A DNA stretch of 64,000 nucleotides, from assembly GCF_023218075.1 (NCBI RefSeq), contig NZ_JALPTB010000004.1, forward strand, positions 124,001-188,000. The letters run 5' to 3'. The stretch comes from Rhodococcus sp. HM1. Its GTDB lineage: Bacteria > Actinomycetota > Actinomycetes > Mycobacteriales > Mycobacteriaceae. The notes beneath the pieces are model-generated. The model had not been told where the DNA came from. It did not search any database and worked only from the letters and a program-made list of their open reading frames with translations. The number at the start of each line of letters is the position of its first letter. Position 1 is the stretch's first letter. The position numbers were made by a program, and so were the translations under genes. Below, in pieces: positions 3,673 to 59,595 of this stretch.

Positions 3673-5160
3673 TCAGGCCGGGGCGAGCGGCGGCTGCCGG
3701 TCGGCCCACGGCCGGGCCTGTTCCAATTGCGCTGCGAGCGCGAGCAACAGGCCTTCCCCACCGAGCGGCGCGACGAACTGCACCCCGAGCGGTAGACCGT
3801 CGGGCGTCATGTACAGCGGCACCGAGATCGCCGGGCGCCCGGTGATGTTCGCCAGCTGCGTGTAGGGGGTCCGACCCAGGTTGTCGTCGACGATCGAGTC
3901 CAGGAGACCACCGAGCCGCGCGAGACGGCCGAGCCGGCCCGCGACGATCAGCCGGCTCAGAATCCGGACCATCGGCGGGGTGGTCAGTTCGCCGATGCGG
4001 ATCGGCGGCGACGCCAGCGTCGGTGTGAGGAGCAGGTCGTAGCGCTCGTGGAAGGCCACGAGCTGCTGCGTGTAACCGTTCCACCGCTGAAGGGCCGCAA
4101 GGTAATCCGGTGCCGACACCGACCGGCCGACGGCCGCGAGGACACGGGTGTCGAGTTCGAATCCGTCCGGGCCGCAATTGGTCCGGCGACGAGCATCGTC
4201 GACATCCTGCGCGAGCGAGGCGAACCACATCGTCAGGAAGTCCGTCGCGAGGCGCCGCTCGTCGATACCGGTCTCGGCGGGTTCGACGTGGTGCCCGAGC
4301 TCGTCGAGCAGCGCGATCGCGTCGTCGACGGCCGCGACCGCTTCCCGGTCGACGGGAGTGCCGAGCGGCGAGGCGGTCGCGTAGCCGATGCGCAGTTGCC
4401 GCGGTGGGCGGCTCGCGATCGCCGCATACGACTCCTCGGCGCGGGCACCGAGGTACGGACCGGTCGGGTCGGGGCCGGCGACGACGTCGAGCATCCCCGC
4501 CGCGTCCCGGACCGTGCGAGTGACGACCCCGTTGGACACCGCGCCGTGCAGCAACTCGCCGACGGCCGGGCCGCTGGGCACTACACCGCGCCCCGGTTTG
4601 AGCCCGACGAGTCCGCAGCAGGCGGCGGGGATCCGGATGGACCCGCCGCCGTCGTTCGCGCCGGCGGCGGGCACCACCCCCGCCGCGACCGCGGCGGCCG
4701 AACCACCCGACGATCCGCCGGGCGTGTGCTCCGGGTTCCACGGATTGCGCGTCGGCCCGTTCGCCTCCGGTTCGGTGATGTTCTTCGCCCCGAACTCCGG
4801 GGTGTTCGTCTTCCCGAACACGACCAGCCCCGCGTCGATCCAGCGGTCGACGACGAGCGCGTTGCGCGCGGCCGGCAGCGCGGCGAGGGCACGACTACCG
4901 CTTCCGGTCGGTGTGCCCACCACGTCCTGTGCGAGGTCCTTCACCAGGAACGGAACCCCGGCGAACGGCCCGGTGAGCCGGCCCTTGGCGCGGGTTCGGG
5001 CCCGCTCGTCGAGCCGGTACACCACCGTGTTCAGGACCGGTTCGACCGCGTCCAGGCGCGCGATCGCCGTCTCGAGCAGCTCCTCGGGGCCGACCTGACC
5101 GGTGGCGACGAGTTCGGCCAACCCCACCGCGTCGTAACGGCGGTAGTCGCAGTAGTCCAT
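3673..5160 (-). CDS. Amidase-signature family amidase
   Basis: 495 aa amidase of the Ser-cisSer-Lys class. The triad is visible as Lys74 (FLVKD), cis-Ser150 in GGSSGGS and nucleophile Ser174 in DGGGSIRIP, with the usual spacing. It should hydrolyse a carboxylic amide in the cytosol; the substrate is unknown. The start is ATG 5160 because GAGGGGAG sits at ribosome-site distance; an in-frame upstream ATG at 5190 has no such site. It lies on the opposite strand to the MGLP genes and 53 bp from the acyltransferase gene. It takes the position of Rv3033, but I do not claim it is that gene's counterpart. Confidence 0.85.
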   Translation of the reverse strand: MDYCDYRRYDAVGLAELVATGQVGPEELLETAIARLDAVEPVLNTVVYRLDERARTRAKGRLTGPFAGVPFLVKDLAQDVVGTPTGSGSRALAALPAARNALVVDRWIDAGLVVFGKTNTPEFGAKNITEPEANGPTRNPWNPEHTPGGSSGGSAAAVAAGVVPAAGANDGGGSIRIPAACCGLVGLKPGRGVVPSGPAVGELLHGAVSNGVVTRTVRDAAGMLDVVAGPDPTGPYLGARAEESYAAIASRPPRQLRIGYATASPLGTPVDREAVAAVDDAIALLDELGHHVEPAETGIDERRLATDFLTMWFASLAQDVDDARRRTNCGPDGFELDTRVLAAVGRSVSAPDYLAALQRWNGYTQQLVAFHERYDLLLTPTLASPPIRIGELTTPPMVRILSRLIVAGRLGRLARLGGLLDSIVDDNLGRTPYTQLANITGRPAISVPLYMTPDGLPLGVQFVAPLGGEGLLLALAAQLEQARPWADRQPPLAPA

Positions 5161-5214
5161 CCCGCAGCTCCCCTCACCCTCGTCGACCATCCCTCGTCGA
5201 CGACGGATACCGGA

Positions 5215-6042: not shown

Positions 6043-6075
6043 ACCGTATCCTTCGGGCCTGAGGAGAGATGTGTG

Positions 6076-7377
6076 ATGCGGGGTGTCCTGCGGACTGCAG
6101 TGCTGACGACGACGGCAGCACTCGCGTTGAGCGGATGCGGAAGCGGGGACGAACCCATCGACATCCTCTCCGAAGGAGCGTGGCCGGGCCGCTATTCCGA
6201 CGCCCGCAACAGCAGCACCGCGGTCGCGGACGGACTCTCGGACGTGTCGGTCGCCTGGACCCGATCGGTCGGCGGCGCGGTCGGATCACCGCCGTCGATC
6301 GCCGCCAACGGGCAGATCTTCGTCAGCGCATCCACCGACGCCGGCTGCAATCTGTTCGCGTTCCAGATCGACACCGGCCGCAAACGCTGGTGTACGCGTC
6401 TCGCGCCGGGCGTGGGCGTGGTCACGCCGGTCGCCGACACCGTCGCCAACGTCTATGTCGGCGAGGAGGGCGGTCTGTACTCGTTCAACGAGCACGGGCA
6501 GCGCCGCTGGCGTATCCCGGTGAGCGGCACACCGCGCAGCGCACAGTTCACCGGTGACGGAAACCTCTTGGTGGTCACGCACTTCGGTCAGGTCAACGTC
6601 GTCGATACGCAGACGGGCAGGCTCGTTGCCCCGATCTACGACATGGTGCCGATCCCGGGTGTGCAGGACGGCACGAACGTGCCCCGGCAGGCCCCCGACC
6701 ACGGACTGGCCGCGTGCTTCGGCGGCTCCCCTGACTGCCCGGTCGCGACGACGCCCGCGGTGGACGTGGCGACGGACCGCATCTTCGCCACCCTGTGGCG
6801 CCCGGGGACGGACCAGGCGGCACTGGTCGCGTTGCGCTACACCGGCGGTGACGACGCGCGCATCGCCGAGGAGTGGTCGCTCGCGGACCTTCCGGGCGGG
6901 GCGGTGACGAGCCCGGTGCTCTCCGCGGACGGCGCGACGGTGTACGTGCACGACGGCGACGGCACCCTCTGGGCGATCGACGCCGCGACGGGCTCGCCGC
7001 GCTGGAGCCACGATCCGGGTTTCGTCACCTCGACGGGACCGGCGGTGACGGCCGACGGGACGATCCTGCTCGCCGGGGGCGGCGCGGACGGTCCGCTCGT
7101 GGCGTTGCGCGACGCCGGGGATCACCCCGAATCCCTGTGGGAACGCGACGACGTGCGTCAACTCGGCGCACCGGCCGTCGCCGCGGACGGAGTGGGGTAC
7201 ACGGTGGTGCGGGTTCCGGACGGCCTCGCCGCGCTGGTCTTCGACACCTCCGACGGCAGCACTCTGGATCAGGAATCCCTGCCGGGGGCATCAGGTTTCG
7301 CGGTCGGCACCGCGATCGGACCGGACGGCGAACTGCTGGCGACCACGCTGCTCGGGGATCTCTACACGCTGCGCTGA
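6076..7377 (+). CDS. Lipoprotein with PQQ-like beta-propeller (Rv3035-like)
   Basis: 433 aa. A short signal peptide ends in lipobox ALSGC with lipidated Cys21. The rest is a repeated seven- or eight-bladed pattern with propeller motifs such as VYVGEEGGLYSF, VYVHDGDGTLWAIDAATG and LLGDLYTL, as in BamB/PQQ-like repeat proteins. It is predicted to sit on the outer face of the membrane as a scaffold; no enzyme residues are recognisable. GAGGAGAG at 6061-6068 places the start at ATG 6076 rather than GTG 6073. Position and family match Rv3035, downstream of the MGLP genes. A strong 15-bp hairpin follows. Confidence 0.8.
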   Translation: MRGVLRTAVLTTTAALALSGCGSGDEPIDILSEGAWPGRYSDARNSSTAVADGLSDVSVAWTRSVGGAVGSPPSIAANGQIFVSASTDAGCNLFAFQIDTGRKRWCTRLAPGVGVVTPVADTVANVYVGEEGGLYSFNEHGQRRWRIPVSGTPRSAQFTGDGNLLVVTHFGQVNVVDTQTGRLVAPIYDMVPIPGVQDGTNVPRQAPDHGLAACFGGSPDCPVATTPAVDVATDRIFATLWRPGTDQAALVALRYTGGDDARIAEEWSLADLPGGAVTSPVLSADGATVYVHDGDGTLWAIDAATGSPRWSHDPGFVTSTGPAVTADGTILLAGGGADGPLVALRDAGDHPESLWERDDVRQLGAPAVAADGVGYTVVRVPDGLAALVFDTSDGSTLDQESLPGASGFAVGTAIGPDGELLATTLLGDLYTLR

Positions 7378-7387
7378 GAGTGCCGAA

Positions 7388-7427
7388 CGGCCACACCACC
7401 GGGGCGTAGGCACCGGTGGTGTGGCCG
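7388..7427. terminator. Hairpin between convergent lipoprotein and OsmC genes
   Basis: A perfect 15-bp stem (7388-7402 with 7413-7427) around a 10-nt loop lies between two convergent genes. There is no T-run on either side. A bidirectional terminator is the simplest reading. Confidence 0.6.
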
Positions 7428-7440
7428 TAGGCCGGTCATC

Positions 7441-7869
7441 TCAGGAGGCGAGGACCGTCAACTCGATCCCGCTGCCCCGCCGGATCGTGTTGTAGATCGG
7501 GCAGGTCGCGACGAACCGCTCGCGCAGGACGTCCGCCGCAGCCTGATCCACCCCGGTCGTGGTGATCGTGACCCGGGTGAAGTCGTACCGGGTCGGATCC
7601 TCGCTGCCGCGGGCGTGCGAGGCCTCGACCCGGATCCCGGCGAGCGGCAGCTCCAGTTCCGTCGCGTTCGCCTCGAAGTTCGCCATCGCGCACGATGCGA
7701 GCGCCGACAGGAGCAGCTCCCCGGCCTGGATGGACTCACCGGGACCGAATCGCGAGTCGGTCACCAGATGATTGGCGCGGGCGTCGATCACGAACCGGCC
7801 GGGTACCCCGGCGATGGTGTGCCCCGAGACGGCCGCGATGTTCGACGCGGGCGCGGTGCCGGCGCTCAT
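7441..7869 (-). CDS. OsmC/Ohr-family protein
   Basis: 142 aa OsmC-like protein. It shows the family's central helix with the conserved cysteine, LLSALASCAMANFEANA, and a second cysteine near the end in ATCPIYNTIRRG, the usual peroxidatic/resolving pair that reduces organic hydroperoxides in the cytosol. ATG 7869 forms an ATGA overlap with the stop of the upstream monooxygenase, so the two are probably co-translated. Placed as the last gene of a sulfonate-type uptake operon, it may deal with peroxide or thiol by-products of flavin monooxygenation; that role is inference. Confidence 0.8.
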   Translation of the reverse strand: MSAGTAPASNIAAVSGHTIAGVPGRFVIDARANHLVTDSRFGPGESIQAGELLLSALASCAMANFEANATELELPLAGIRVEASHARGSEDPTRYDFTRVTITTTGVDQAAADVLRERFVATCPIYNTIRRGSGIELTVLAS

Positions 7870-9230
7870 CGGGCGGCGCTCGCGGGCTTGGGGATCCGGT
7901 TCTCCCATTCACGCGCAGCGGGACGCTCGAGTCCGAGGTTCTCGCGCAGGGTGGATCCCTCGTATTCGGTTCGGAACAGGCCGCGCTTCTGCAGCTCGGG
8001 GACGACCTGCCGGGTGAAGTCCTCGAATCCCCCGGGCTGGTAGGGAGCCTGCACCATGAAGCCGTCGCACGCGCCTCCGGTGAACCACTCCTCCAGGCCG
8101 TCGGCGACTTCCGTTGCGGTACCGATGAATCCGCCTTCGACGCGGCCACCGTACTGCTTGCCGAGCTCACGCAGCGTGAGGCCCTCGCGTTCGGTGATCT
8201 CGCGGACCTCGCGGTAGTGGCCCTCGACGCCGGGAACCTCGACGTCGGGCAGCCGCTCGTCGAGGGGGAACGTCGACAGGTCCACGTCCAGGTGGTAGGC
8301 GAGGGTCGAGAGTCCGCCCAGCGGCGGCACCAGTTCGAACAGCTCCTCGAAGGTCTGCTGCGCGATCGCGCTGGTGGCACCGATGACCGGGGCGATCGAC
8401 GGCAGGATCTTCACCTGACGGGGGTCGCGGCCGTGCGCGGCGGCCCGCTCCTTGATCTCGCGGTAGAAGTCCTGCGCCGACTCGAGCGACGCGTGGCTGC
8501 AGAAGATGACGTCGGACCAGCGGGCGGCGAAGTCCTTGCCCTTGGCGGAGGCGCCGGCCTGGATCACCACCGGGTATCCCTGCGGCGGCCGCGGCACGTT
8601 GAGCGGTCCCTGAACGGTGAACCACTCCCCCTTGTGGCCGATCGCGTGCACCTTCTCGGGGTCGGCGAACAACGGCGCCTCGGTGTCCAGGACCAGCGCG
8701 TCGTCCTCCCAGCTGTCCCAGAGCTTCGCCGCCACCTCGAGGAACTCGTCGGCGCGTTCGTAGCGCTTCTCGCGGGGGAACTGCTCGTCGAGGTTGAAAT
8801 TGCGCGCCTCGGACTCCTGGAACGAGGTCACCACGTTCCAGGCAGCGCGGCCGGCGGTGAGGTGGTCCAGGCTCGCGAACGAGCGGGCCACGGTGAACGG
8901 CTGCGCGTACGTGGTGGACACCGTCGCGGCGAGACCGAGGTGCCGGGTCACGGCACCCATCGACGACAGCACGTGCAGCGGGTCGAGACGCAACGAGCCG
9001 AGCGCGCCGTTGCGCAACTGGGTGTCGGTGCTCGACCCGAACCGGTCGGGCACCGAGAGGATGTCGGCGAAGAACGCGAGGTCGAACCTGCCGTCCTCGA
9101 GGGTGCGGGCGATGTTCTGGTAGTACTCCGCGGACAACCACCCGGGGACCGAGGCCGGGTAGCGCCAGCCACCGGGGCGGCCGGGGCCGGCGGTGATGAA
9201 CGCGGCGAGATGCATCTGGGAGTCGGACAT
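7866..9230 (-). CDS. FMNH2-dependent monooxygenase, NtaA/SnaA/DszA family
   Basis: 454 aa luciferase-fold monooxygenase. Family landmarks are WRYP near the start, YQNIARTLEDGRFDLAFFAD, GLAATVSTTYAQPF, RAAWNVVTS, EARNFNL and QAGASAKGKDFAARWSDVIF. Members oxidise nitrilotriacetate, sulfones or sulfur-containing organics with FMNH2 from a partner reductase. Linkage to an SsuABC-type importer and a sulfatase suggests cleavage of C-S bonds for sulfur supply, as in DszA or dimethylsulfide monooxygenase; the substrate is not determinable. ATG 9230 is chosen because homology begins MSDSQMHLAAF. There is no FMN reductase gene beside it, so reductant must come from elsewhere. Confidence 0.82.
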   Translation of the reverse strand: MSDSQMHLAAFITAGPGRPGGWRYPASVPGWLSAEYYQNIARTLEDGRFDLAFFADILSVPDRFGSSTDTQLRNGALGSLRLDPLHVLSSMGAVTRHLGLAATVSTTYAQPFTVARSFASLDHLTAGRAAWNVVTSFQESEARNFNLDEQFPREKRYERADEFLEVAAKLWDSWEDDALVLDTEAPLFADPEKVHAIGHKGEWFTVQGPLNVPRPPQGYPVVIQAGASAKGKDFAARWSDVIFCSHASLESAQDFYREIKERAAAHGRDPRQVKILPSIAPVIGATSAIAQQTFEELFELVPPLGGLSTLAYHLDVDLSTFPLDERLPDVEVPGVEGHYREVREITEREGLTLRELGKQYGGRVEGGFIGTATEVADGLEEWFTGGACDGFMVQAPYQPGGFEDFTRQVVPELQKRGLFRTEYEGSTLRENLGLERPAAREWENRIPKPASAAR

Positions 9231-9256
9231 GACGGTGCTGATACCTACTTCGAGAG

Positions 9257-10339
9257 TTACTGGACGTTCGAGAGTTCTTTGTCGATGACGGACTTGATCG
9301 AGTCGAACCGCGAATCCTGCAGCCACGACGTGACATCGACCTGCTCGGGGTAGATGCCGAGCCGGTGGAAGTTGTCGGCGAGATCCTGGGTGCCGGCGAT
9401 CGCGTCGGCACCGACCGAGGTGAACTGTCCCGCACCGGAGTACGAGAGCCGCTTCGTCTCGACGAGGTCGCGGTACACCTCGGCTTCCATCGCGTTGCCG
9501 CCGAAGCCGCCGAGCCGGGTGAACTCGTCGACGGCCGCGGCGGGGTTGGCCTCGATCCAGCGCTGTGCGTCGCGGACGTTGCGCACCAGCTTCGCCGCGA
9601 CCTCGGGGTGGCTGTTCGCGAAGGATTCACTCGCGACGAAGAACGCGTAGTCGTAGGTCTTCACGTCGGGCAGGGTCGCGGCGTTGTGCTTGCGCTTGGC
9701 GAGTTCGGCCATCGGCTGCCACGTGATCCAGGCGTCCACCTTGCCCTGCGCGAACGCGGCCTCGGCGTCCGCGGCGGTGAGGTTGACGTACTCGATGTCG
9801 TCGAGCGTCAGGCCCGCGGTCTCGAGGTACTTGACCAGGCTGTACGTGCCGGTCGTGCCGCGGTGGTCGGCGACCTTGCGGCCCTTCAGATCTGCGGCGG
9901 ACCGGATGGTGGAGCCCTGCGGGACCAGGACGTCCACCTCGTTGCTCGGCAGCGGGTACGCCACCAGCGGGACGATGGGAACGCCACCGCCGATCGCGTA
10001 GATGACGGCGGTCGCGGTGGCGAAGGAGAAGTCGACGCTGCCGGACTTGATCGCCTCCATCACCGGCAGGGACGCCGGGAATCCGGTGGGCCATTCCACC
10101 GGCACGCCGAGGTCGGCGGCGACGTCGAACCCACCGAGGCTGTTGCGCAGCACGGTGCCCGGTTCGGCGTTGCCGTCGCCGATCAGCGCGTACCGGACCT
10201 GGGTGAGCGGGCCGTCTTCGTCTGCTGCGGCGTCGGTGCTGCACCCGGCGAGGGACAGGGCGGTCAGGCCGAGGACACCGGCGCCGGTGGCCTTGAGGAA
10301 GCCGCGTCGGCTCAGCGACGAAGAGGTCAGGGGTGACAT
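9257..10339 (-). CDS. ssuA: SsuA-like ABC transporter substrate-binding lipoprotein
   Basis: 360 aa periplasmic-binding-type protein of the NrtA/SsuA/TauA family. It has a twin-arginine signal (SRRGFLKATG) followed by lipobox SLAGC, lipidated at Cys33, so it should be exported folded and anchored outside the membrane. Family motifs include PGTVLRNSLGGFDVAADLGV, SGSVDFSF, DLKGRKVADHRGTTG and QGKVDAWITWQP. It is followed by the monooxygenase and preceded by the ATPase and permease genes on the same strand. Aliphatic sulfonates are the likely cargo, but nitrate-, taurine- or thiamine-type relatives share the fold. Confidence 0.8.
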   Translation of the reverse strand: MSPLTSSSLSRRGFLKATGAGVLGLTALSLAGCSTDAAADEDGPLTQVRYALIGDGNAEPGTVLRNSLGGFDVAADLGVPVEWPTGFPASLPVMEAIKSGSVDFSFATATAVIYAIGGGVPIVPLVAYPLPSNEVDVLVPQGSTIRSAADLKGRKVADHRGTTGTYSLVKYLETAGLTLDDIEYVNLTAADAEAAFAQGKVDAWITWQPMAELAKRKHNAATLPDVKTYDYAFFVASESFANSHPEVAAKLVRNVRDAQRWIEANPAAAVDEFTRLGGFGGNAMEAEVYRDLVETKRLSYSGAGQFTSVGADAIAGTQDLADNFHRLGIYPEQVDVTSWLQDSRFDSIKSVIDKELSNVQ

Positions 10340-10391
10340 AGCGGGGGTGAAACCTTCCTACGGGTGGAGCGGGTGGATCGGAGGGGCAGTG

Positions 10392-11120
10392 TCAGGAATG
10401 GAGGGCGCGGTCGGCCTCGAGGAGCCCGTCGAGGAACTCCTCCTTCCAGGCCGCGAGGCGGGCGTCACCGCGGTGCCGGGGGCGGGCCTGGTCGATCCGG
10501 AGTTCACGGGTGATCCCGGATTCGGTGAGCAGCAGCACCCGGTCGGAGAGGATCAACGCTTCCTCGACGTCGTGGGTGACGAGCAGGACGGTGCGGGGCC
10601 GCTCGGCGAGCATCCGTTCGAGCAGTTGCTGCATCGTGACCCGGGTGATCGCGTCGAGCGCGCCGAACGGTTCGTCGAGGAGCAGCACGTCGGGGTGGTG
10701 CAGCAGGGCGCGGGCGAGCGCGACGCGCTGCCGCTGGCCGCCGGACAGTTCGGAGGGCCAGGCGTTCTCCCGACCGGCGAGTCCGACCTCGCGGAGCAGC
10801 GCGGCCGCTTCGTCGCGTCGTCCCTTGGTGCCGAGCTGGACGTTGTCGAGGACGTTGCGCCAGGGCAGGAGCCGGTCCTCCTGGAACATCATGCGCGAGA
10901 CGACGGGCCGGTCGACGGTCGGCTCGACGCGGCCCTCGGTCGGCTGCTCGAGCCCGGCGAGGATCCGGAGCAGGGTGGACTTGCCCACGCCGCTCGGTCC
11001 GAGGAACGTCACGAACTCGCCCGGCGCGATCGACAGGTCGATGTTGTTCAGGATGCGCTTGTCCTGGTAGCGGTGTCCGACGCCGAGCAGGTCGAGTCCG
11101 ACGAGGTCGTCACGGGACAT
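10392..11120 (-). CDS. ssuB: SsuB-like ABC transporter ATP-binding protein
   Basis: 242 aa ATPase. Walker A GPSGVGKST is at 41-49, the signature is LSGGQRQRVALARALL, Walker B is DVLLLDEPFGALD and the switch histidine is in LLVTHDVEEA. The short length and R-IDQARPRHR tail match SsuB/TauB/NrtD proteins that energise uptake of sulfonates and related anions. The ATG at 11120 shares one base with the permease stop (TGATG), so the two subunits are translationally coupled. Confidence 0.85.
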   Translation of the reverse strand: MSRDDLVGLDLLGVGHRYQDKRILNNIDLSIAPGEFVTFLGPSGVGKSTLLRILAGLEQPTEGRVEPTVDRPVVSRMMFQEDRLLPWRNVLDNVQLGTKGRRDEAAALLREVGLAGRENAWPSELSGGQRQRVALARALLHHPDVLLLDEPFGALDAITRVTMQQLLERMLAERPRTVLLVTHDVEEALILSDRVLLLTESGITRELRIDQARPRHRGDARLAAWKEEFLDGLLEADRALHS

Positions 11121-11971
11121 CAGCGAGTTCCCTTCCGGTAGTTGGGGTTCCAGCGGAGGACTCGCGCCTCGACCAGCCGGATGAGCTGATCGGCCAGGAG
11201 GCCGGCGAGCGCGTAGAGCACGATCGCGAGGACGATCCGGTCGTTGCGGAGCAGGTCGCGGCCGTTCTGGGCGAGGAAGCCGATGCCCTCGCTGGTCGCG
11301 ATGGTTTCGGCGATCACGAGCGTCAGCCAGGCCACGCCGAGCGCGTAGCGGATGCCGGTCAGGATCATCGGCATCGCGCCGGGCACGATGACCTGCCGGA
11401 TCAGCTCGCCGCGCCCGAGCCCGTACGAGCGGCCGAGCTGCACGAGCTTCGGATCGACGGTGCGGATACCCGCGACGGTGTTGAGGTAGACGGGGAAGAT
11501 GACGCCGAGGGTCACGAGCAGGACCTTCGGCAGCTCGCCGATGCCGAACGCCGCGATGAGCAGCGGGACGAGGGCGAGATGCGGCAGCGCACGCAGCATC
11601 TGCAGGGTCCGGTCGACGAGTCCTTCGGCGATGCGCGAGAGGCCGACGGCGAAGCCGAGGACGAGACCGATCCCGGCGCCGATGGTGAAGCCGATGACGA
11701 TGCGTCGCACACTCACCAGCAAGTGGGTCTGCAGTTCTCCCGCGGCCCAGAGGTTCCGGGCGGTGTCGAGCACCTTGCTCGGGGGCGGCAGGATCGACGC
11801 GGAGATCAGTCCGGTGGACGAGGCCCACTGCCAGCCGAGCAGCACGAGGGCCGGAACGACCCACGGCAGCAGCGCGGTCGCCCGCGGCGTCCGGATGACG
11901 CGGCGGGTGCGCGGCGGCTCGGCGGTGGGCGCAGGGGTAGCCGGTGCTGCGGAGACCGTGAGATCAGACAT
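11120..11971 (-). CDS. ssuC: SsuC-like ABC transporter permease
   Basis: 283 aa permease with about six membrane segments and the EAA-type cytoplasmic loop (LGRSYGLGRGELIRQVIVPG) that docks on the ATPase. It belongs to the SsuC/TauC/NrtB group. The basic, proline-rich N-terminus (residues 1-33) precedes the first segment LLPWVVPALVLLGWQW. The ATG at 11971 has no recognisable ribosome site of its own; a 14-codon leader ORF with a strong site overlaps its start, which suggests coupled initiation. It is the first large gene of the operon, facing the GntR regulator. Confidence 0.85.
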   Translation of the reverse strand: MSDLTVSAAPATPAPTAEPPRTRRVIRTPRATALLPWVVPALVLLGWQWASSTGLISASILPPPSKVLDTARNLWAAGELQTHLLVSVRRIVIGFTIGAGIGLVLGFAVGLSRIAEGLVDRTLQMLRALPHLALVPLLIAAFGIGELPKVLLVTLGVIFPVYLNTVAGIRTVDPKLVQLGRSYGLGRGELIRQVIVPGAMPMILTGIRYALGVAWLTLVIAETIATSEGIGFLAQNGRDLLRNDRIVLAIVLYALAGLLADQLIRLVEARVLRWNPNYRKGTR

Positions 11972-12008
11972 CGCCGGTCGCCGTCGGTGTGGGGGTGGTC
12001 GTGTTCAT
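11964..12008 (-). CDS. 14-aa leader ORF overlapping ssuC start
   Basis: The minus strand encodes MNTTTPTPTATGDV and a stop, 14 residues rich in Thr/Pro, starting at ATG 12008. GAGGAG lies 4 nt upstream, the best ribosome site in this area, and the stop overlaps the ssuC ATG region by 8 nt in another frame. ssuC itself lacks a ribosome site. I infer a real leader peptide that delivers ribosomes to ssuC. Its ribosome site lies in the 3' arm of a hairpin (12011-12040). Chance cannot be ruled out at this length. Confidence 0.4.
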   Translation of the reverse strand: MNTTTPTPTATGDV

Positions 12009-12010
12009 CG

Positions 12011-12040
12011 TTCTCCTCGCGGACAGCAGTGCGAGGAGCA
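12011..12040 (-). promoter_or_regulatory. Hairpin that can hide the leader ORF ribosome site
   Basis: On the minus strand TGCTCCTCGC and GCGAGGAGAA form a stem of 8-9 bp around 10 nt. The second arm contains GAGGAG, the ribosome site of the leader ORF. A TATAGT -10 candidate (12043-12038) would start transcription close to the first arm. Confidence 0.35.
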
Positions 12041-12073
12041 CTATAAATACAAACGACAACAAACGACGACAAC

Positions 12074-12081
12074 TGTATACA
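12074..12081. promoter_or_regulatory. Candidate GntR (FadR/FCD-type) operator TGTATACA
   Basis: TGTATACA is a perfect 8-bp palindrome in the divergent ssuC/gntR intergenic region, beside the imperfect direct repeat AAACGACAAC / AAACGACGACAAC at 12051-12073. FCD-type GntR regulators commonly bind GTATAC-centred palindromes. It is the only such site I noticed in this intergenic region. Confidence 0.45.
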
Positions 12082-12170
12082 CATGGATTCAAACCCTTCC
12101 CATCCGCGCGCTGCCCTGGTATGGGTTGGTTCGTCCACTTTTCTGCGCGTCTCGAGGAGGGAACCGACCG

Positions 12171-12794
12171 TTGGACGTCGACAGATCGCCGTACGCACAA
12201 CTGCGCGAACGCATTACGAACGGCGAATATGCGCCCGGCTCCATGCTGGTGCCGGCCGGCGTCGGCGCGGAGATGGGGCTGTCGCGGACACCCGTGCGGG
12301 AAGCGTTGCAGCGGCTCGAGTTCGACGGTCTGGTGATCAAGGTCACCCGCGGCTACATGGTGCGTGAGCGCACCGAGGAGGAGGTACTCGCGATCTGTGA
12401 CGCCCGGATCGCGCTGGAATCCGCTGCCGCGTTCGCCGCGGCGACCAGACGATCCGAGATCGATCTGGCCCGGCTGACGAGCCTGTTCGAGCGCGCCGTC
12501 GCGGCACCGGATCCGAAGAGCGCACTCCGCCTGCACAACGACTGGCACGCCGCGCTGCGCTCCGCCGCCCACAACCCGACCATCGCCGAGCTGATGGAAC
12601 GCCTGGACGCGCAACTGGCCGTCTACGACGCCGAGGCGTCCGCGGCTCCCGACAATCTCGACGCGATCGAGACGGAGCACCGCCACATCCTCGACGCGAT
12701 CGTCGCGGGGGACGGCGAGCGGGCGCGCGCCCTGATGACCGCCCACCAGGAGCGCACCCGCGATATCCGCATTTCTGCCATGGCGGCGCGCTAG
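12171..12794 (+). CDS. GntR-family regulator with FCD domain
   Basis: 207 aa. The N-terminal winged helix is clear: LRERITNGEYAPGSML, then LSRTPVREALQRLEFDGLV. The C-terminal FCD sensor domain carries the metal/ligand-binding pattern ALRLHNDWHAAL, HNPTIAEL, ETEHRHILDAI and AHQERT. It starts at TTG 12171, with GAGGAGG at 12154-12160; no in-frame ATG or GTG precedes the DNA-binding domain. It is divergent from the ssuC operon and followed by the FGE and sulfatase genes, so it is the obvious candidate to control both arms in response to a sulfur-related ligand. Confidence 0.85.
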   Translation: MDVDRSPYAQLRERITNGEYAPGSMLVPAGVGAEMGLSRTPVREALQRLEFDGLVIKVTRGYMVRERTEEEVLAICDARIALESAAAFAAATRRSEIDLARLTSLFERAVAAPDPKSALRLHNDWHAALRSAAHNPTIAELMERLDAQLAVYDAEASAAPDNLDAIETEHRHILDAIVAGDGERARALMTAHQERTRDIRISAMAAR

Positions 12795-12841
12795 CCGGGA
12801 ATCCCACCGACGGGCGCACGGACCGTGCGACGCTGATCCCC

Positions 12842-13795
12842 ATGACAAGGGCGCTACCGAAGAACGCAGTGCCGAAGAACATGGTCTTCATTCCGGGAGG
12901 CACGTTCTGGATGGGCTCGGAGGACTTCTATCCCGAGGAACGACCGGTCCACCAGGTAACGGTCGGCGGGTTCTGGATGGACGAGCACCCGGTGACGGTC
13001 GCCGAGTTCCGCCGCTTCGTGAAAGCGACCGGATATGTCACGACCGCGGAGGTCGCGCCCGACCCGGACCGGTACCCCGGGGCGGACCCGGCACTGCTCG
13101 TTCCCGGGTCACTGGTGTTCACCCCGCCCCGGGGCCCTGTTCCCCTCGACGACTACACCCGCTGGTGGTCCTTCACACCCGGCGCCGACTGGCGTCACCC
13201 CGAGGGTCCCGACAGCAATGTCGGAGGCAGGGAACGGCATCCGGTCACGCACGTGTCGTGGTTCGACGCCAGGGCGTACGCCGAGTGGGCCGGCAAGGAA
13301 CTGCCGACCGAGGCGGAGTGGGAGTTCGCCGCGCGCGGCGGCCTCGATCGCAAGATCTTCGTGTGGGGTGACGAGCACGAGCCGGGCGGCCGCCCCGGCG
13401 GGAACGTCTGGCAGGGCGAGTTCCCGTGGCAGAACCTCCTCGAGGACGAGTTCGCCGGAACCTCCCCCGTCGGGCATTTCCGGCCCAACGGGTATGGGCT
13501 CGACGACATGGCCGGCAACGTGTGGGAGTGGACGAGCGACCACTTCTCCCCCGACCACTCGGCGAGCGGCAAGAACGTCGCCCCGGCGTCGTCGTGCTGC
13601 ATTCCGGCGAATCCCCGCGTCGACGCTGCTGTGGTCCACGACCCGAACGAACCGTATGCGCGCCGCGTGATCAAGGGCGGCTCGCACCTGTGCGCGCCGA
13701 ACTACTGTCTTCGCTACCGCCCCGCTGCCCGGCAGGGTGAAACCGAGGAGACGTCGACCTGCCACATCGGCTTCCGGTGCATCCTCCGGCCGTGA
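12842..13795 (+). CDS. Formylglycine-generating enzyme (sulfatase-modifying factor)
   Basis: 317 aa FGE/SUMF1 fold. It opens with MVFIPGGTFWMGSEDF, has the FWMDEHPVTVAEFRRFV block, then THVSWFDARAYAEWAGKELPTEAEWEFAARGG. Near the end, GGSHLCAPNYCLRYRPAARQ carries the two copper-binding cysteines (Cys284 and Cys289). The enzyme oxidises the cysteine of CxPxR sulfatase motifs to formylglycine using O2. The next gene encodes exactly such a sulfatase, so the pair is self-sufficient. ATG 12842 is the first start; Met14 is an alternative. Confidence 0.93.
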   Translation: MTRALPKNAVPKNMVFIPGGTFWMGSEDFYPEERPVHQVTVGGFWMDEHPVTVAEFRRFVKATGYVTTAEVAPDPDRYPGADPALLVPGSLVFTPPRGPVPLDDYTRWWSFTPGADWRHPEGPDSNVGGRERHPVTHVSWFDARAYAEWAGKELPTEAEWEFAARGGLDRKIFVWGDEHEPGGRPGGNVWQGEFPWQNLLEDEFAGTSPVGHFRPNGYGLDDMAGNVWEWTSDHFSPDHSASGKNVAPASSCCIPANPRVDAAVVHDPNEPYARRVIKGGSHLCAPNYCLRYRPAARQGETEETSTCHIGFRCILRP

Positions 13796-13876
13796 CTTCC
13801 ATCTCGTAAACCCGTCTCCGCGACGACGAACCGGTGCTGTACTGGAACGGGTGGGCGGAGAAGGGGGCACACGGTC

Positions 13877-16204
13877 ATGGGCAAGGAACTCCGGGCAGCA
13901 CCGATACCCGGCGGGGATACCCTGCCGTTTCCCCCGACGCCGTCGGGGAGTATCGCGGGCCGCACCATGCAGGAATCGGTGTACAGCCCACACCCGAAGC
14001 AGCGCCGGCTGCCCGCCGACGCCCCGAACATCCTCGTCGTGCTGATCGACGACGCCGGTCCGGGTCTGCCGACAGGGTTCGGCGGCGAGGTGAACACCCC
14101 AACCCTCGACCGCATGCTCGACGAGGGCATCGGCTACAACCGCTTCCACACCACCGCGATGTGTTCGCCGACCCGCGCGTCGCTGCTCACCGGCCGCAAC
14201 CACCATCGCGTCGGCAACGGGCAGATCGCCGAGCTGGCCAACGACTGGGACGGGTATTCCGGCCACATCCCGAAGTCGAGTGCGACGGGAGCGGAGGTCC
14301 TGCGGCACTACGGGTACACCACCGCGGCGTTCGGCAAGTGGCACAACACCCCGGCCGAGGAGACCACGGCCGCCGGGCCCTACGACAACTGGCCCACCGG
14401 CGTCGGTTTCGACTACTTCTACGGCTTCCTCGCCGGTGAGGCATCGCAGTACGAGCCGAACCTCGTCCGCAACACCACCGTCGTCCTGCCACCGAAGACC
14501 CCCGAGCAGGGCTACCACCTCAGCGAGGACCTCGCGGACGACGCCATCGGCTGGTTGCGCCGCCACAAGGCGCTCGACGCCGACCGGCCCTTCTTCATGT
14601 ACTGGGCCAGCGGCTGCCTGCACGGCCCGCACCACATCATGAAGGACTGGGCAGACCGGTATTCGGGCAAGTTCGACGACGGCTGGGACGCCTACCGCGA
14701 GCGCGTGTTCGCCCGGGCCAAGGAGAAGGGCTGGATCCCACCGGAGGCCGAACTCACCGACCGCGATCCCACCATGGCGGCGTGGGACGACATCCCCGAG
14801 GAGGAGAAGCCGTTCCAGCGTCGCCTCATGGAGGTGGCGGCCGGGTACGCCGAGCACTGTGATGTGCAGGTCGGGCGGTTGTTCGACGAGCTGGACCGGC
14901 TCGGCTACCGCGACAACACCCTGGTCCTCTACATCTGGGGCGACAACGGCTCGTCCGGGGAGGGCCAGGAAGGGACCATCAGCGAACTGCTGGCGCAGAA
15001 CGGGATTCCGACGACCCCGGCGCAGCACATCGCCGCCCTCGAGGAACTCGGCGGACTCGACGTCCTCGGCTCTCCGAAGACCGACAACATGTACCACGCG
15101 GGATGGGCGTGGGCGGGCAGCACGCCCTACAAGGGCATGAAACTCCTCGCGTCGCATCTCGGGGGAACCCGCAATCCGATGGTGGCGCGGTGGCCCGCGA
15201 AGATCACCCCCGATCGGACCCCGCGAACCCAGTTCCTGCACTGCAACGATCTGGTGCCGACCTTCTACGACCTGCTCGGAATCACCCCGCCCCGCTCCGT
15301 GAACGGGATTCCGCAGGACCCCATCGACGGTGCCAGCTTCGCGGAGACCTTCGTCGACCGGGACGCGAAGGCGGGCAAGATCACCCAGTACTTCGAGATC
15401 ATGGGCAGCCGCGCGATCTACCACGACGGCTGGATGGCGTCCGCGTTCGGACCCCGGGCACCGTGGCTGCAGGGCATGCCCGGCGGGATCCGCGACTGGA
15501 ACCCCGACGACGACACCTGGGAGCTCTACAATCTCGACGAGGACTGGACCCAGAACCGCAATCTCGCCGAGCAGTATCCCGAGAAGCTGGCCCAGCTGCG
15601 GGAGTTGTTCGCGATCGAGGCGGCCAAGAACAACGCCCTGCCGATCGGCGGGGGGCTCTGGGTGGTGGCACTTCACCCCGAGCAGCGGATCACCACGCCG
15701 TACACCAGCTGGGAGTTCACCGGCGACGTCACCCGTATGCCCGAATTCTGTGCTCCCGCACTGGGAAACAGGAACAACCGCGTTGCCGTCGATCTGACCG
15801 TCCCCGAGCGGGCCGGCGGTGTCCTCTACGCTCTCGGCGGCAACGGCGGCGGGCTGACCTGTTTCATGGACGACGGCTACCTCTGCTACGAGTACAACCT
15901 GTTCATCCTGATGCGCACCAAGATGCGCTCGGCGGAGCCGATTCCGCCCGGCGAGCACAAACTCGAAGTGTTCACCGAGTACGCCGAGACCCGCCCCGGC
16001 GGCCCGCTGAACGTCCGGATGTGTGTCGACGGGCAGAAGGTCGGCGAGACGACCGTGCCGATCAGCGCGCCGTTGCTGTTCACGGCGAACGACTGTCTCG
16101 ACATCGGTACCTGCCTCGGGTCACCGGTGTCGCTCGACTACTACGATCGCGCGCCGTTCCCGTTCGACGGAACCATCGAGAAGGTCGTCGTCGACTACAT
16201 CTAG
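13877..16204 (+). CDS. Type I (formylglycine) arylsulfatase
   Basis: 775 aa sulfatase. Metal ligands begin at VVLIDDAG (Asp58, Asp59). The activation motif CSPTRASLLTGR has the target Cys96, to be converted to formylglycine by the adjacent FGE. Further family blocks are FGKWHNTP, WASGCLHGPHH and WGDNGSSGEGQEG. A long C-terminal part after about residue 600 is typical of larger bacterial arylsulfatases. No signal peptide is visible, so it is probably cytosolic, which agrees with co-occurrence with a cytosolic FGE and with importer genes nearby. It should release sulfate from sulfate esters. The stop overlaps that of the convergent methyltransferase gene within CTAG. Confidence 0.92.
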   Translation: MGKELRAAPIPGGDTLPFPPTPSGSIAGRTMQESVYSPHPKQRRLPADAPNILVVLIDDAGPGLPTGFGGEVNTPTLDRMLDEGIGYNRFHTTAMCSPTRASLLTGRNHHRVGNGQIAELANDWDGYSGHIPKSSATGAEVLRHYGYTTAAFGKWHNTPAEETTAAGPYDNWPTGVGFDYFYGFLAGEASQYEPNLVRNTTVVLPPKTPEQGYHLSEDLADDAIGWLRRHKALDADRPFFMYWASGCLHGPHHIMKDWADRYSGKFDDGWDAYRERVFARAKEKGWIPPEAELTDRDPTMAAWDDIPEEEKPFQRRLMEVAAGYAEHCDVQVGRLFDELDRLGYRDNTLVLYIWGDNGSSGEGQEGTISELLAQNGIPTTPAQHIAALEELGGLDVLGSPKTDNMYHAGWAWAGSTPYKGMKLLASHLGGTRNPMVARWPAKITPDRTPRTQFLHCNDLVPTFYDLLGITPPRSVNGIPQDPIDGASFAETFVDRDAKAGKITQYFEIMGSRAIYHDGWMASAFGPRAPWLQGMPGGIRDWNPDDDTWELYNLDEDWTQNRNLAEQYPEKLAQLRELFAIEAAKNNALPIGGGLWVVALHPEQRITTPYTSWEFTGDVTRMPEFCAPALGNRNNRVAVDLTVPERAGGVLYALGGNGGGLTCFMDDGYLCYEYNLFILMRTKMRSAEPIPPGEHKLEVFTEYAETRPGGPLNVRMCVDGQKVGETTVPISAPLLFTANDCLDIGTCLGSPVSLDYYDRAPFPFDGTIEKVVVDYI

Positions 16205-17358
16205 ACCGATGCCTCGCACACGAAAGCCTCTGCGGTGCGCCCGATCCGGGTCAGCACCACCGACAACGACCGCGTACCCCGGAGTTTGAGACGTGGCCGC
16301 AGCACCGCGGGGTCGACGTCGACTCCGCGGACGAGGATCTCGGCGACCCCGCAGTCGTGCTGCGCGAGCGCCTGTTTCAAAGCCTTCTCGGTGTACTTGA
16401 ACCGGTCGAGGATGCGGAAGCCGCGCACGCCCTCGGGCAGGGTGTCGCCGGTGAGATAGGCGATGCGCGGATCCAGTTGCCACAGACCGTGATACGCCGC
16501 CCAGTGCCGGACCAGGCCGGCCCGCACGATCGCGCCGTCGGGATCGACGATCCACTGCCCCGGAGGACGGTCGTCGATGTCGTCGGGCATCGCGTCGGTG
16601 ACCTCGAATCCCGTTCCATCCGAACGCAACACGCTTGCCCGGCGTCGGACACCGGGGCTCGACAGGCCCGGCGAGTACAGGCACGCCTCGCGGACACCGC
16701 CGTCGAGCGAGACGACCTCGACCTCCCCCGCCCAGTCGAGCGCGTCGAAATCCAGGCCCGGCGCGCACTTCACCGCGAGATCGCGTCCGGCATAGACGTC
16801 GAGCAGGTCCGGCAGCGGTGGTTGCAGCGCCGCCGGATCGTGCGTGCGCCGGCCGCCGGCGCGGCGTGCGGGATCGGCGATCACGGTGGTCCCGCGGGTG
16901 ACGGGCCGCAGCGCGTCGGCCCGGATCAGCGATGTGCCCGGCACGTTGTGCGCGGCCATCGCCAACCGCACCGGGTCCAGATCGCTGCCGATCACGAGGT
17001 CGGCGACACCCACGAGCGCCGCCAGTTCCGCGCCGATCGAACATGTCACGTCGTGCACGCGCCGCCCGGCCAGGCGCCGCGCCCGATGCGTGGCGACCAC
17101 GGCGGGGGTGGCCTGCTGCACCGCGTCGTCGGTGAGCAGCCATCCCCCGGCCTCCGGCAGTTTCGCGACAGCCTTGCGGCGCGCCAGCACGGTCTCGACG
17201 AGCAGGCCGGCACGGTCGCCGAAACGCGTACGCACCCAGCCGATGTCGGCCAGGCGTGTACGCGCGGACAGTTCCCGGCCGTCCACCTCGGTCAAGGCGG
17301 ACGCCGCCTCGTCCGACGCCAGATAGGCGACGTCGGCGAGGGTGAACTCGTATCCCAA
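16201..17358 (-). CDS. SAM-dependent methyltransferase with THUMP-like C-terminus (Rv3037c-like)
   Basis: 385 aa. The N-terminal region (LADVAYLASDEAASAL, then WLLTDDAVQQATP) precedes a Rossmann methyltransferase core with VHDVTCSIGAELAAL (motif I variant) and DLVIGSDLDPVRLAMAAHN. The C-terminus, EILVRGVDVDPAVLRPRLKL, resembles THUMP-like domains. In M. tuberculosis Rv3037c is listed as a second methyltransferase of the MGLP cluster; an RNA-methylation role is the alternative suggested by the domain. It starts with TTG 17358 directly after the upstream stop, with no gap, so it depends on translational coupling. Confidence 0.75.
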   Translation of the reverse strand: MGYEFTLADVAYLASDEAASALTEVDGRELSARTRLADIGWVRTRFGDRAGLLVETVLARRKAVAKLPEAGGWLLTDDAVQQATPAVVATHRARRLAGRRVHDVTCSIGAELAALVGVADLVIGSDLDPVRLAMAAHNVPGTSLIRADALRPVTRGTTVIADPARRAGGRRTHDPAALQPPLPDLLDVYAGRDLAVKCAPGLDFDALDWAGEVEVVSLDGGVREACLYSPGLSSPGVRRRASVLRSDGTGFEVTDAMPDDIDDRPPGQWIVDPDGAIVRAGLVRHWAAYHGLWQLDPRIAYLTGDTLPEGVRGFRILDRFKYTEKALKQALAQHDCGVAEILVRGVDVDPAVLRPRLKLRGTRSLSVVLTRIGRTAEAFVCEASV

Positions 17359-59344: not shown

Positions 59345-59358
59345 CGTTGCGAGAACTG

Positions 59359-59431
59359 TGGAGCTAAGGGGACTCGAACCCCTGACCCCCACACTGCCAG
59401 TGTGGTGCGCTACCAGCTGCGCCATAGCCCC
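59359..59431 (-). tRNA. tRNA-Ala (GGC), copy 1
   Basis: 73 nt, no encoded CCA. Acceptor stem GGGGCTA pairs with TAGCTCC and contains the G3-U70 pair that identifies alanine tRNAs; discriminator A. D arm GCGC/GCGC, anticodon loop CTGGCAG with anticodon GGC at 59398-59396, and T arm GGGGTTCGAGTCCCC. Sequence is identical to copy 2. Confidence 0.97.
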
Positions 59432-59481
59432 TTGTGAAAATGTCCAGTGAACATGTCCACCGTGAAACTGTCTCTTCTCAA

Positions 59482-59517
59482 GACTACAGGCGAGAGTGTG
59501 AACTCTCGCCTGTAGTC
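59482..59517 (-). terminator. Hairpin between the two tRNA-Ala genes
   Basis: A perfect 15-bp stem (59482-59496 with 59503-59517), loop 6 nt, lies 5 nt downstream of copy 2. It separates the tRNA genes into two transcription units; the U-run is poor. Confidence 0.7.
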
Positions 59518-59522
59518 GGAAG

Positions 59523-59595
59523 TGGAGCTAAGGGGACTCGAACCCCTGACCCCCACACTGCCAGTGTGGTGCGCTACCAGCTGCGCCATAGCCCC
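59523..59595 (-). tRNA. tRNA-Ala (GGC), copy 2
   Basis: 73 nt, identical to copy 1 at 59359-59431, 164 bp away. It has the same G3-U70 identity pair and anticodon GGC (59562-59560), reading GCC/GCU codons, which are abundant in this genome. No CCA is encoded. Confidence 0.97.

Follow-up and report, generated by a model that had tools for sequence, protein, structure and literature searches.

Comparative analysis of an eight-gene block in Rhodococcus sp. HM1 points to two independent accessory cassettes at a variable insertion site

Introduction

The described systems closest to the locus analysed here are the two-component, flavin mononucleotide (FMN)-dependent monooxygenases of the NtaA/DmoA/DszA family, including Rhodococcus DszA, the SsuEADCB system, and the type I sulfatases together with their formylglycine-generating enzyme (FGE). 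Genes related to all three lie in an eight-gene block at positions 7441-16204 of a stretch of 64,000 nucleotides from Rhodococcus sp. HM1 (assembly GCF_023218075.1, contig NZ_JALPTB010000004.1, positions 124,001 to 188,000 of the forward strand), which is here called the window; its genome and contig carry the handles G000 and C192. An initial annotation had read the block as a single self-contained sulfur-scavenging module under one divergent GntR regulator. According to the genome comparisons presented here, the block very probably consists of two mutually independent accessory cassettes that lie together at a variable site, and is not one coordinated sulfur-scavenging unit. Cassette A comprises osmC, a monooxygenase gene, the genes of an SsuABC-like importer and a divergent gntR, while cassette B comprises fge and a sulfatase gene (Table 1). 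The result corrects an attractive, misleading reading, as adjacency of sulfur genes does not make a module.

The cassette A monooxygenase shares with the NtaA/DmoA/DszA enzymes a full-length family match above the curated cut-off, and its best solved relative is DszA (5tlc, 433.3 bits). Cassette A differs from the Dsz system in the presence of an SsuABC-like importer, an OsmC protein and a GntR regulator; using Pfam and NCBIfam, neither DszB nor DszC nor a flavin reductase (SsuE) was found among the eight block genes, the search for the reductase being limited to the block. With SsuEADCB the block has in common a binding protein, an ATPase and a permease of the SsuA, SsuB and SsuC kind. However, SsuD and SsuE are missing from the eight genes, the monooxygenase belongs to another family, and the importer proteins stay below the equivalog-level cut-offs (107.7 vs 299 bits for SsuA, 270.8 vs 395 for SsuB and 269.5 vs 347 for SsuC), so that they are SsuABC-like in kind. 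Cassette B shares the CxPxR motif, the PF00884 domain, the FGE domain and a C-terminal cysteine pair with the Pseudomonas aeruginosa arylsulfatase (1hdh) and a solved FGE (6s07); the solved type I sulfatases cover only approximately residues 49-576 of the 775-residue sulfatase of the block.

In the accessible part of a study of Rhodococcus IGTS8 (PMC8557817), Ssu proteins, a nitrilotriacetate-monooxygenase-like protein and sulfatases are reported to be higher on dibenzothiophene than on sulfate. The raised proteins, which include AtsA1-TauD with a ROK regulator, resemble the block in combining a sulfatase with sulfonate-type uptake under scarce sulfate, but as far as that part of the study goes they are encoded in separate operons and under another regulator.

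Results

Cassettes A and B at and away from the insertion site

The site was compared across 18 genomes of the same genus, including the genome of the window, and distances were taken from the ends of protein matches. The Rv3035-like gene and the THUMP-like gene that flank the block are separated by just 15-49 bp in 11 of the 18 genomes, and other DNA (773, 773 and 1891 bp) is present in three. One site is broken by a contig end (G009), and the remaining three genomes carry the whole block or a part of it, namely the window's own genome, R. phenolicus (G012) and G008. In G008 the genes from osmC to gntR lie at the site and end one contig. The THUMP gene was found near the end of another contig (G008:C14); in front of it lie an AraC-type gene (L201, 1-1714) and a further open frame in place of the fge-sulfatase pair, and the two contigs likely adjoin. 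Because the G008 site holds this AraC-type gene and the G013 site (L204, 7524-9396) a LysR gene with a DHDPS-family gene, the site accepts varied inserts. The block has thus been inserted at a position between two convergent core genes that varies among the genomes, and its accessory nature agrees with the initial annotation, as do the gene families, assigned with Pfam and NCBIfam, and the Rv3030-Rv3041c-type surroundings, whose order matches in kind. No recombinase or transposase was found among the eight block genes using Pfam. A single mobile element was considered and rejected, since the eight genes lack a recombinase and the boundaries of cassettes A and B differ.

Cassette A is present with the same gene order in 7 of the 18 genomes. 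Besides the three genomes with an occupied Rv3035|THUMP site, four carry it elsewhere (G006, G007, G011 and G017; loci L187 and L191-L193), in G017 between an AAA-ATPase gene and a CoxE-type gene. Away from the window and G012, cassette B (fge with 85-87% and sulfatase with 89% identity) is located between a ligase gene and an aldo-keto reductase gene in all four genomes concerned (G002, G004, G006 and G017), and an fge with 83% identity occupies the same position without the sulfatase in G014. Among the direct neighbours of cassette B at this second site no regulator was detected (Pfam on L188). The two cassettes are adjacent only in the window's genome and in G012, and they are unlinked in both other genomes that carry the two, G006 and G017. 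Five further genomes carry a single cassette, which is A in G007, G008 and G011 and B in G002 and G004. In total, A was counted in seven genomes, B in six, both in four and the joined form in two; this co-occurrence does not reach significance (Fisher one-sided p = 0.12). Unlinking of the same genes in close relatives, which the initial annotation had named as a result that would refute its own proposal, was therefore found, and the idea of a single self-contained module, contradicted by two genomes with unlinked cassettes and five with one cassette only, was not upheld.

The DNA homology also stops between gntR and fge. Window positions 7453 to 12763-12788, apart from a gap in the promoter region, are matched by cassette A loci from other sites, and positions from 12873-12876 through 16202 by cassette B loci. 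Furthermore, cassette A stands beside the sulfatase gene in only one of 80 named sulfatase loci (19 of them with shortened flanks), which is that of R. phenolicus, and fge is found within the fetched stretch in 10 of the 80. A relocation of cassette B from the ligase|aldo-keto reductase site within the window's genome or G012 was also considered. An aldo-keto reductase homolog with 79-80% identity exists in G012 and, as a partial match, in the window's genome, but the fetched stretches around it contain no ligase, fge or sulfatase gene, so that a relocation is not supported. Sulfatase homologs in pieces or with an internal stop were noted in G001:C21 and in G005:C58, C137 and C141, and may reflect decay or assembly error.

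A promoter motif confined to cassette A

The putative GntR operator YTGTATACASATGRATYYRAA is conserved in the divergent promoter region of cassette A in all seven carriers. When the 18 genomes were searched with up to three mismatches, one exact site was obtained in each of the seven carriers and none with one or two mismatches; three other genomes gave one match with three mismatches each, and a reversed control pattern gave six matches in four genomes. As the pattern was built from the seven sites, the exact matches follow by construction, and the informative part of the search is the absence of other close sites. Since a close copy of the motif is missing outside cassette A, GntR control of fge would require read-through from gntR, which ends 47 bp upstream on the same strand. 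This arrangement is kept in two genomes, and from this position cassette B may be read from the gntR promoter in the window's genome and one sister. Of the single divergent regulator assumed at first, the part that holds is the linkage of gntR to the importer and monooxygenase operon (7 of 7 genomes carrying gntR), and control of the whole block is not supported, the motif with 0-2 mismatches being restricted to cassette A.

Proteins of the two cassettes and their predicted roles

In cassette A, osmC overlaps the 3' end of the monooxygenase gene, and its product has two cysteines, Cys73 and Cys136. The start of the monooxygenase gene is not fixed, as the open frame extends to 9326. The binding protein has, judged by eye, an N-terminal RR signal ending at a lipoprotein-type cysteine, and its best solved relative is SsuA (2x26). 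Neither a rhodanese nor a hydroxyethylthiazole kinase was found among the eight block genes (Pfam). Cassette A would represent a transferable sulfur-acquisition unit, in which the importer is predicted to take an organosulfur compound into the cell, the reduced-flavin-dependent monooxygenase of NtaA/DszA type to cleave a C-S bond, and OsmC to handle peroxide or a sulfur by-product; the divergent GntR would control the cassette via one operator.

In cassette B, Cys284 and Cys289 of the FGE align with the C-terminal cysteine pair of the solved enzyme, which we take to be the active-site pair. The sulfatase carries the FGE-target motif CSPTRASLLTG with Cys96 (CxPxR type), and both proteins are the only matches of their kind in the window's genome (E <= 1e-30 for FGE, E <= 0.001 for the sulfatase). 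Judged by eye, the N-terminus of the sulfatase lacks a signal peptide, and its substrate would thus have to be intracellular; cassette B is predicted to provide a cytoplasmic type I sulfatase with its activating FGE.

Table 1. Features of the block and its two direct neighbours in the window
Feature	Position in the window	Strand	Evidence or remark
Rv3035-like PQQ-type gene	6073-7377		left neighbour of the block
OsmC-family protein, 155 aa	7441..7908	-	Pfam OsmC PF02566, 49.2 bits
NtaA/DmoA/DszA-family FMN-dependent monooxygenase	7866..9236	-	TIGR03860, 538.4 bits, cut-off 279.7
SsuA-like substrate-binding protein	9257..10339	-	TIGR01728 (SsuA_fam), 153.2 bits, slightly below cut-off 163.5
SsuB-like ATPase	10392..11120	-	Pfam and NCBIfam; start uncertain, 11120-11141
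SsuC-like permease	11120..11971	-	Pfam and NCBIfam
Putative GntR operator YTGTATACASATGRATYYRAA	12073..12093	+	divergent promoter region of cassette A; 7/7 cassette A promoters
GntR/FCD regulator, divergent from importer operon	12171..12794	+	PF00392 and PF07729
Formylglycine-generating enzyme (FGE)	12842..13795	+	PF03781, 276.5 bits
Type I sulfatase, 775 aa	13877..16204	+	PF00884, 178.5 bits
Rv3037c-like THUMP-type gene	16201-17358		right neighbour of the block

Distribution of cassette A beyond the genus

Strict searches with the monooxygenase (E <= 1e-140) and GntR (E <= 1e-42) in 348 genomes of the order returned just the window's genome, G012 and the diverged G156, and a strict search in 394 genomes of the class (E <= 1e-138) returned the window's genome alone; in the order and class searches, scoring was limited to the 9 or 4 top first-look candidates of each listed genome. 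Among 17 genomes of the family of G156, G156 was the only match. Searches of plasmids with the monooxygenase, GntR and permease yielded no complete cassette A and one remnant: on a 1.39-Mb plasmid of Rhodococcus sp. JS3073 (L226, NZ_CP113952.1, 14742-15549), half a gntR (62%) adjoins half a permease gene (84%), and these halves probably represent a decayed cassette A.

Relatives associated with rhodanese and thiazole kinase genes

The substrate of cassette A could be a thiazole-like heterocycle, the monooxygenase opening or oxidising the ring, GntR sensing the ring or its product, and OsmC replacing a rhodanese; this is a tentative explanation that we regard as possible. The four nearest non-orthologous monooxygenases found have 55-63% identity, a distance at which the substrate may differ, and are located in G008 (L198, G008:C3), on a Pseudonocardia plasmid (L220), on a Paracoccaceae plasmid (L221) and in G156 (L224). 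The monooxygenase gene is followed by a rhodanese gene in all four, with a hydroxyethylthiazole kinase gene nearby in three, an amidase gene in two, a RidA gene in one and a GntR of 43-45% identity in three. The four loci resemble a heterocycle-desulfurisation family, and two of them are plasmid-borne. In the monooxygenase tree cassette A is sister to this clade with a support of 94/94, slightly below the level starred by the tool. The GntR tree weighs against the heterocycle, as it joins cassette A only to the regulators of L220 and G156 (81/87), with the L198 regulator elsewhere and a long-branch warning from the tool.

Neighbourhoods of further GntR proteins bear on the same question. Of 16 paralogs of the regulator in the genus with 42-43% identity, 15 lie within approximately 5 kb of the hydroxyethylthiazole kinase gene (thiM), the 16th (G012) having the two on different contigs, and these paralogs adjoin a rhodanese gene in 15 of 15 examined, one of which is the L198 cassette. 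In L199 of the window's own genome (G000:C182, L199:3271-8752) and in L266-L269, gntR is divergent from genes for a rhodanese, a hydroxyethylthiazole kinase and then a flavin monooxygenase (5 of 5), and the motif GTATACGCAAGTAT is conserved in six of six aligned promoters of such clusters. The L199 monooxygenase is SsuD-like, well below the SsuD cut-off (121.7 vs 518.2). G003 and G009, which lack the 42-43% GntR, have the kinase gene without a nearby match to rhodanese or the L199-type monooxygenase. With cassette A, L198 and L220 share the sister monooxygenase, and the L198, L220 and L199 cassettes have related GntR proteins and a GTATAC core in the promoter motifs in common with it; cassette A differs in that it lacks the kinase and carries OsmC where these cassettes have the rhodanese. 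An Rfam scan of eight related loci, including L199 and L266, gave no match, hence no thiamine pyrophosphate (TPP) riboswitch there, which favours the heterocycle.

The rhodanese and kinase neighbours of monooxygenase relatives and GntR paralogs thus make a sulfur heterocycle a serious rival substrate, and for the wider cassette family these gene neighbourhoods point to sulfur heterocycles as the substrate class. For cassette A itself the explanation stays a rival and not a result, because rhodanese and kinase are absent and OsmC occupies the rhodanese position. In addition, the importer is SsuABC-like by sequence, the sample amounts to four cassettes, and the kinase may serve plain thiamine salvage; the two kinases tested exceed one NCBIfam kinase cut-off (232 and 200 vs 180) but fail another (190 and 193 vs 256). 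A broader version, in which cassette A is one member of an as yet undescribed family of thiazole-ring-breaking sulfur-scavenging cassettes (importer, DszA- or SsuD-like monooxygenase, rhodanese or OsmC, often hydroxyethylthiazole kinase, and a GntR reading a GTATAC-type operator) and the copy in the window is derived and mobile, is considered rather unlikely. A literature search returned, among the matches listed, no title or beginning of an abstract that describes rhodanese/thiazole-kinase cassettes, but published descriptions may nevertheless exist. If the heterocycle explanation were true, it would provide a testable route by which soil actinobacteria could obtain sulfur from thiazole-type compounds, meaning thiamine fragments, natural products and some agrochemicals.

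A sulfonate or sulfone as a possible alternative substrate

Alternatively, and again only tentatively, cassette A could be a sulfonate or sulfone operon, in line with the initial annotation; an alkane- or arylsulfonate or a sulfone would enter through the SsuABC-type importer and then be cleaved to sulfite. The best solved relatives of the binding protein and the monooxygenase, SsuA and DszA, fit this explanation, as do the proteins raised in IGTS8 on dibenzothiophene. The accessible part of a study of Gordonia NB4-1Y (PMC7661421) likewise reports a rise of two nitrilotriacetate-monooxygenase genes when fluorotelomers serve as sulfur sources; for one of the two, the rise is also seen on OCT, the sulfonate control. 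On the other hand, the monooxygenase is far from SsuD (TIGR03565, 42.8 bits vs cut-off 518.2) and from SfnG (67.5 bits vs cut-off 382.95), and both assignments were rejected; the importer misses the equivalog-level cut-offs, flavin reductase, DszB and DszC are lacking in the eight genes, and the nearest monooxygenase relatives point to rhodanese and thiazole kinase. Of the initial sulfur-scavenging proposal, the sulfur-related families and the accessory insertion were retained; the label 'sulfonate' rests on the importer, with no SsuD or flavin reductase in the eight genes, and is unproven.

Observations weighing against the composite reading

Several observations weigh against two independent cassettes or against parts of this reading. 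Ten Rhodococcus and Prescottella loci (L032-L041) encode a sulfatase with 79-90% identity without fge in the fetched stretch, so that the two genes of cassette B do not always occur together. Three Agromyces loci (L094, L097 and L101) have SsuBC-like importer genes at a distance of approximately 1-2 kb upstream of a sulfatase gene of the same type; in L094, the one of the three checked with Pfam, they comprise binding protein, ATPase and permease genes. Importer and sulfatase can accordingly form a functional pair, which in Agromyces is possibly an independent one. The monooxygenase and GntR trees place G012 with G008 and not with the window's genome, which may mean that G008 has lost cassette B and that the two cassettes were not joined late. 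The coupling of gntR and fge, being kept in two genomes, may have become functional, and one genome pair cannot tell selection from descent.

Amino acid composition was compared as Cys+Met percentiles among the 48 genes that a simple composition script called in the window. The monooxygenase (15th percentile), binding protein (10th) and permease (6th) are low, but OsmC (71st), the ATPase (42nd) and GntR (83rd) are not sulfur-poor, and the monooxygenase is average in its family (1.32% vs a mean of 1.25% in 19 distant homologs, 11 of which are lower or equal). FGE and sulfatase reach the 77th and 83rd percentile, the sulfatase being at or above all 19 distant homologs, and their contrast with the three sulfur-poor proteins of cassette A speaks for two cassettes. 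Low Cys/Met content was rejected as proof, given the distant homologs of the monooxygenase and the values of OsmC, ATPase and GntR; it is a mild sign that parts of cassette A are made under sulfur scarcity, with no such sign for cassette B. The accessible part of PMC8557817 reports few or no sulfur residues in DszA, DszB, DszC and MetY of IGTS8, with zero cysteine and five methionines in DszA.

One integrated module, with sulfate esters reaching the cytoplasmic sulfatase through the importer as well and with both arms under GntR, would suit the contiguity in two genomes, the short co-directional gntR-fge gap, the lack of a signal peptide and the Agromyces loci, but is improbable given the unlinked cassettes of G006 and G017, the five genomes with one cassette alone, the non-significant co-occurrence and the motif confined to cassette A.

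Flanking genes and minor features of the window

According to Pfam, the left flank consists of methyltransferase, GH57, GT4, hexapeptide transferase and PQQ-type protein genes, and the right flank of THUMP-like, methyltransferase, enoyl-CoA hydratase, NUDIX and ABC ATPase genes. The Rv numbers used here presumably correspond to these genes, and the order matches in kind. An amidase gene (3673-5190) separates the GT4 gene of the left flank from the hexapeptide-transferase gene. A 19-nt inverted repeat (95%, 4-nt loop) at 7387-7428, in the gap that separates osmC from the convergent Rv3035-like gene, is terminator-like by position. The Rfam scan of the window returned two tRNAs and nothing else; these are two adjacent tRNA-Ala (GGC) genes at 59358-59595 with the same Rfam score.

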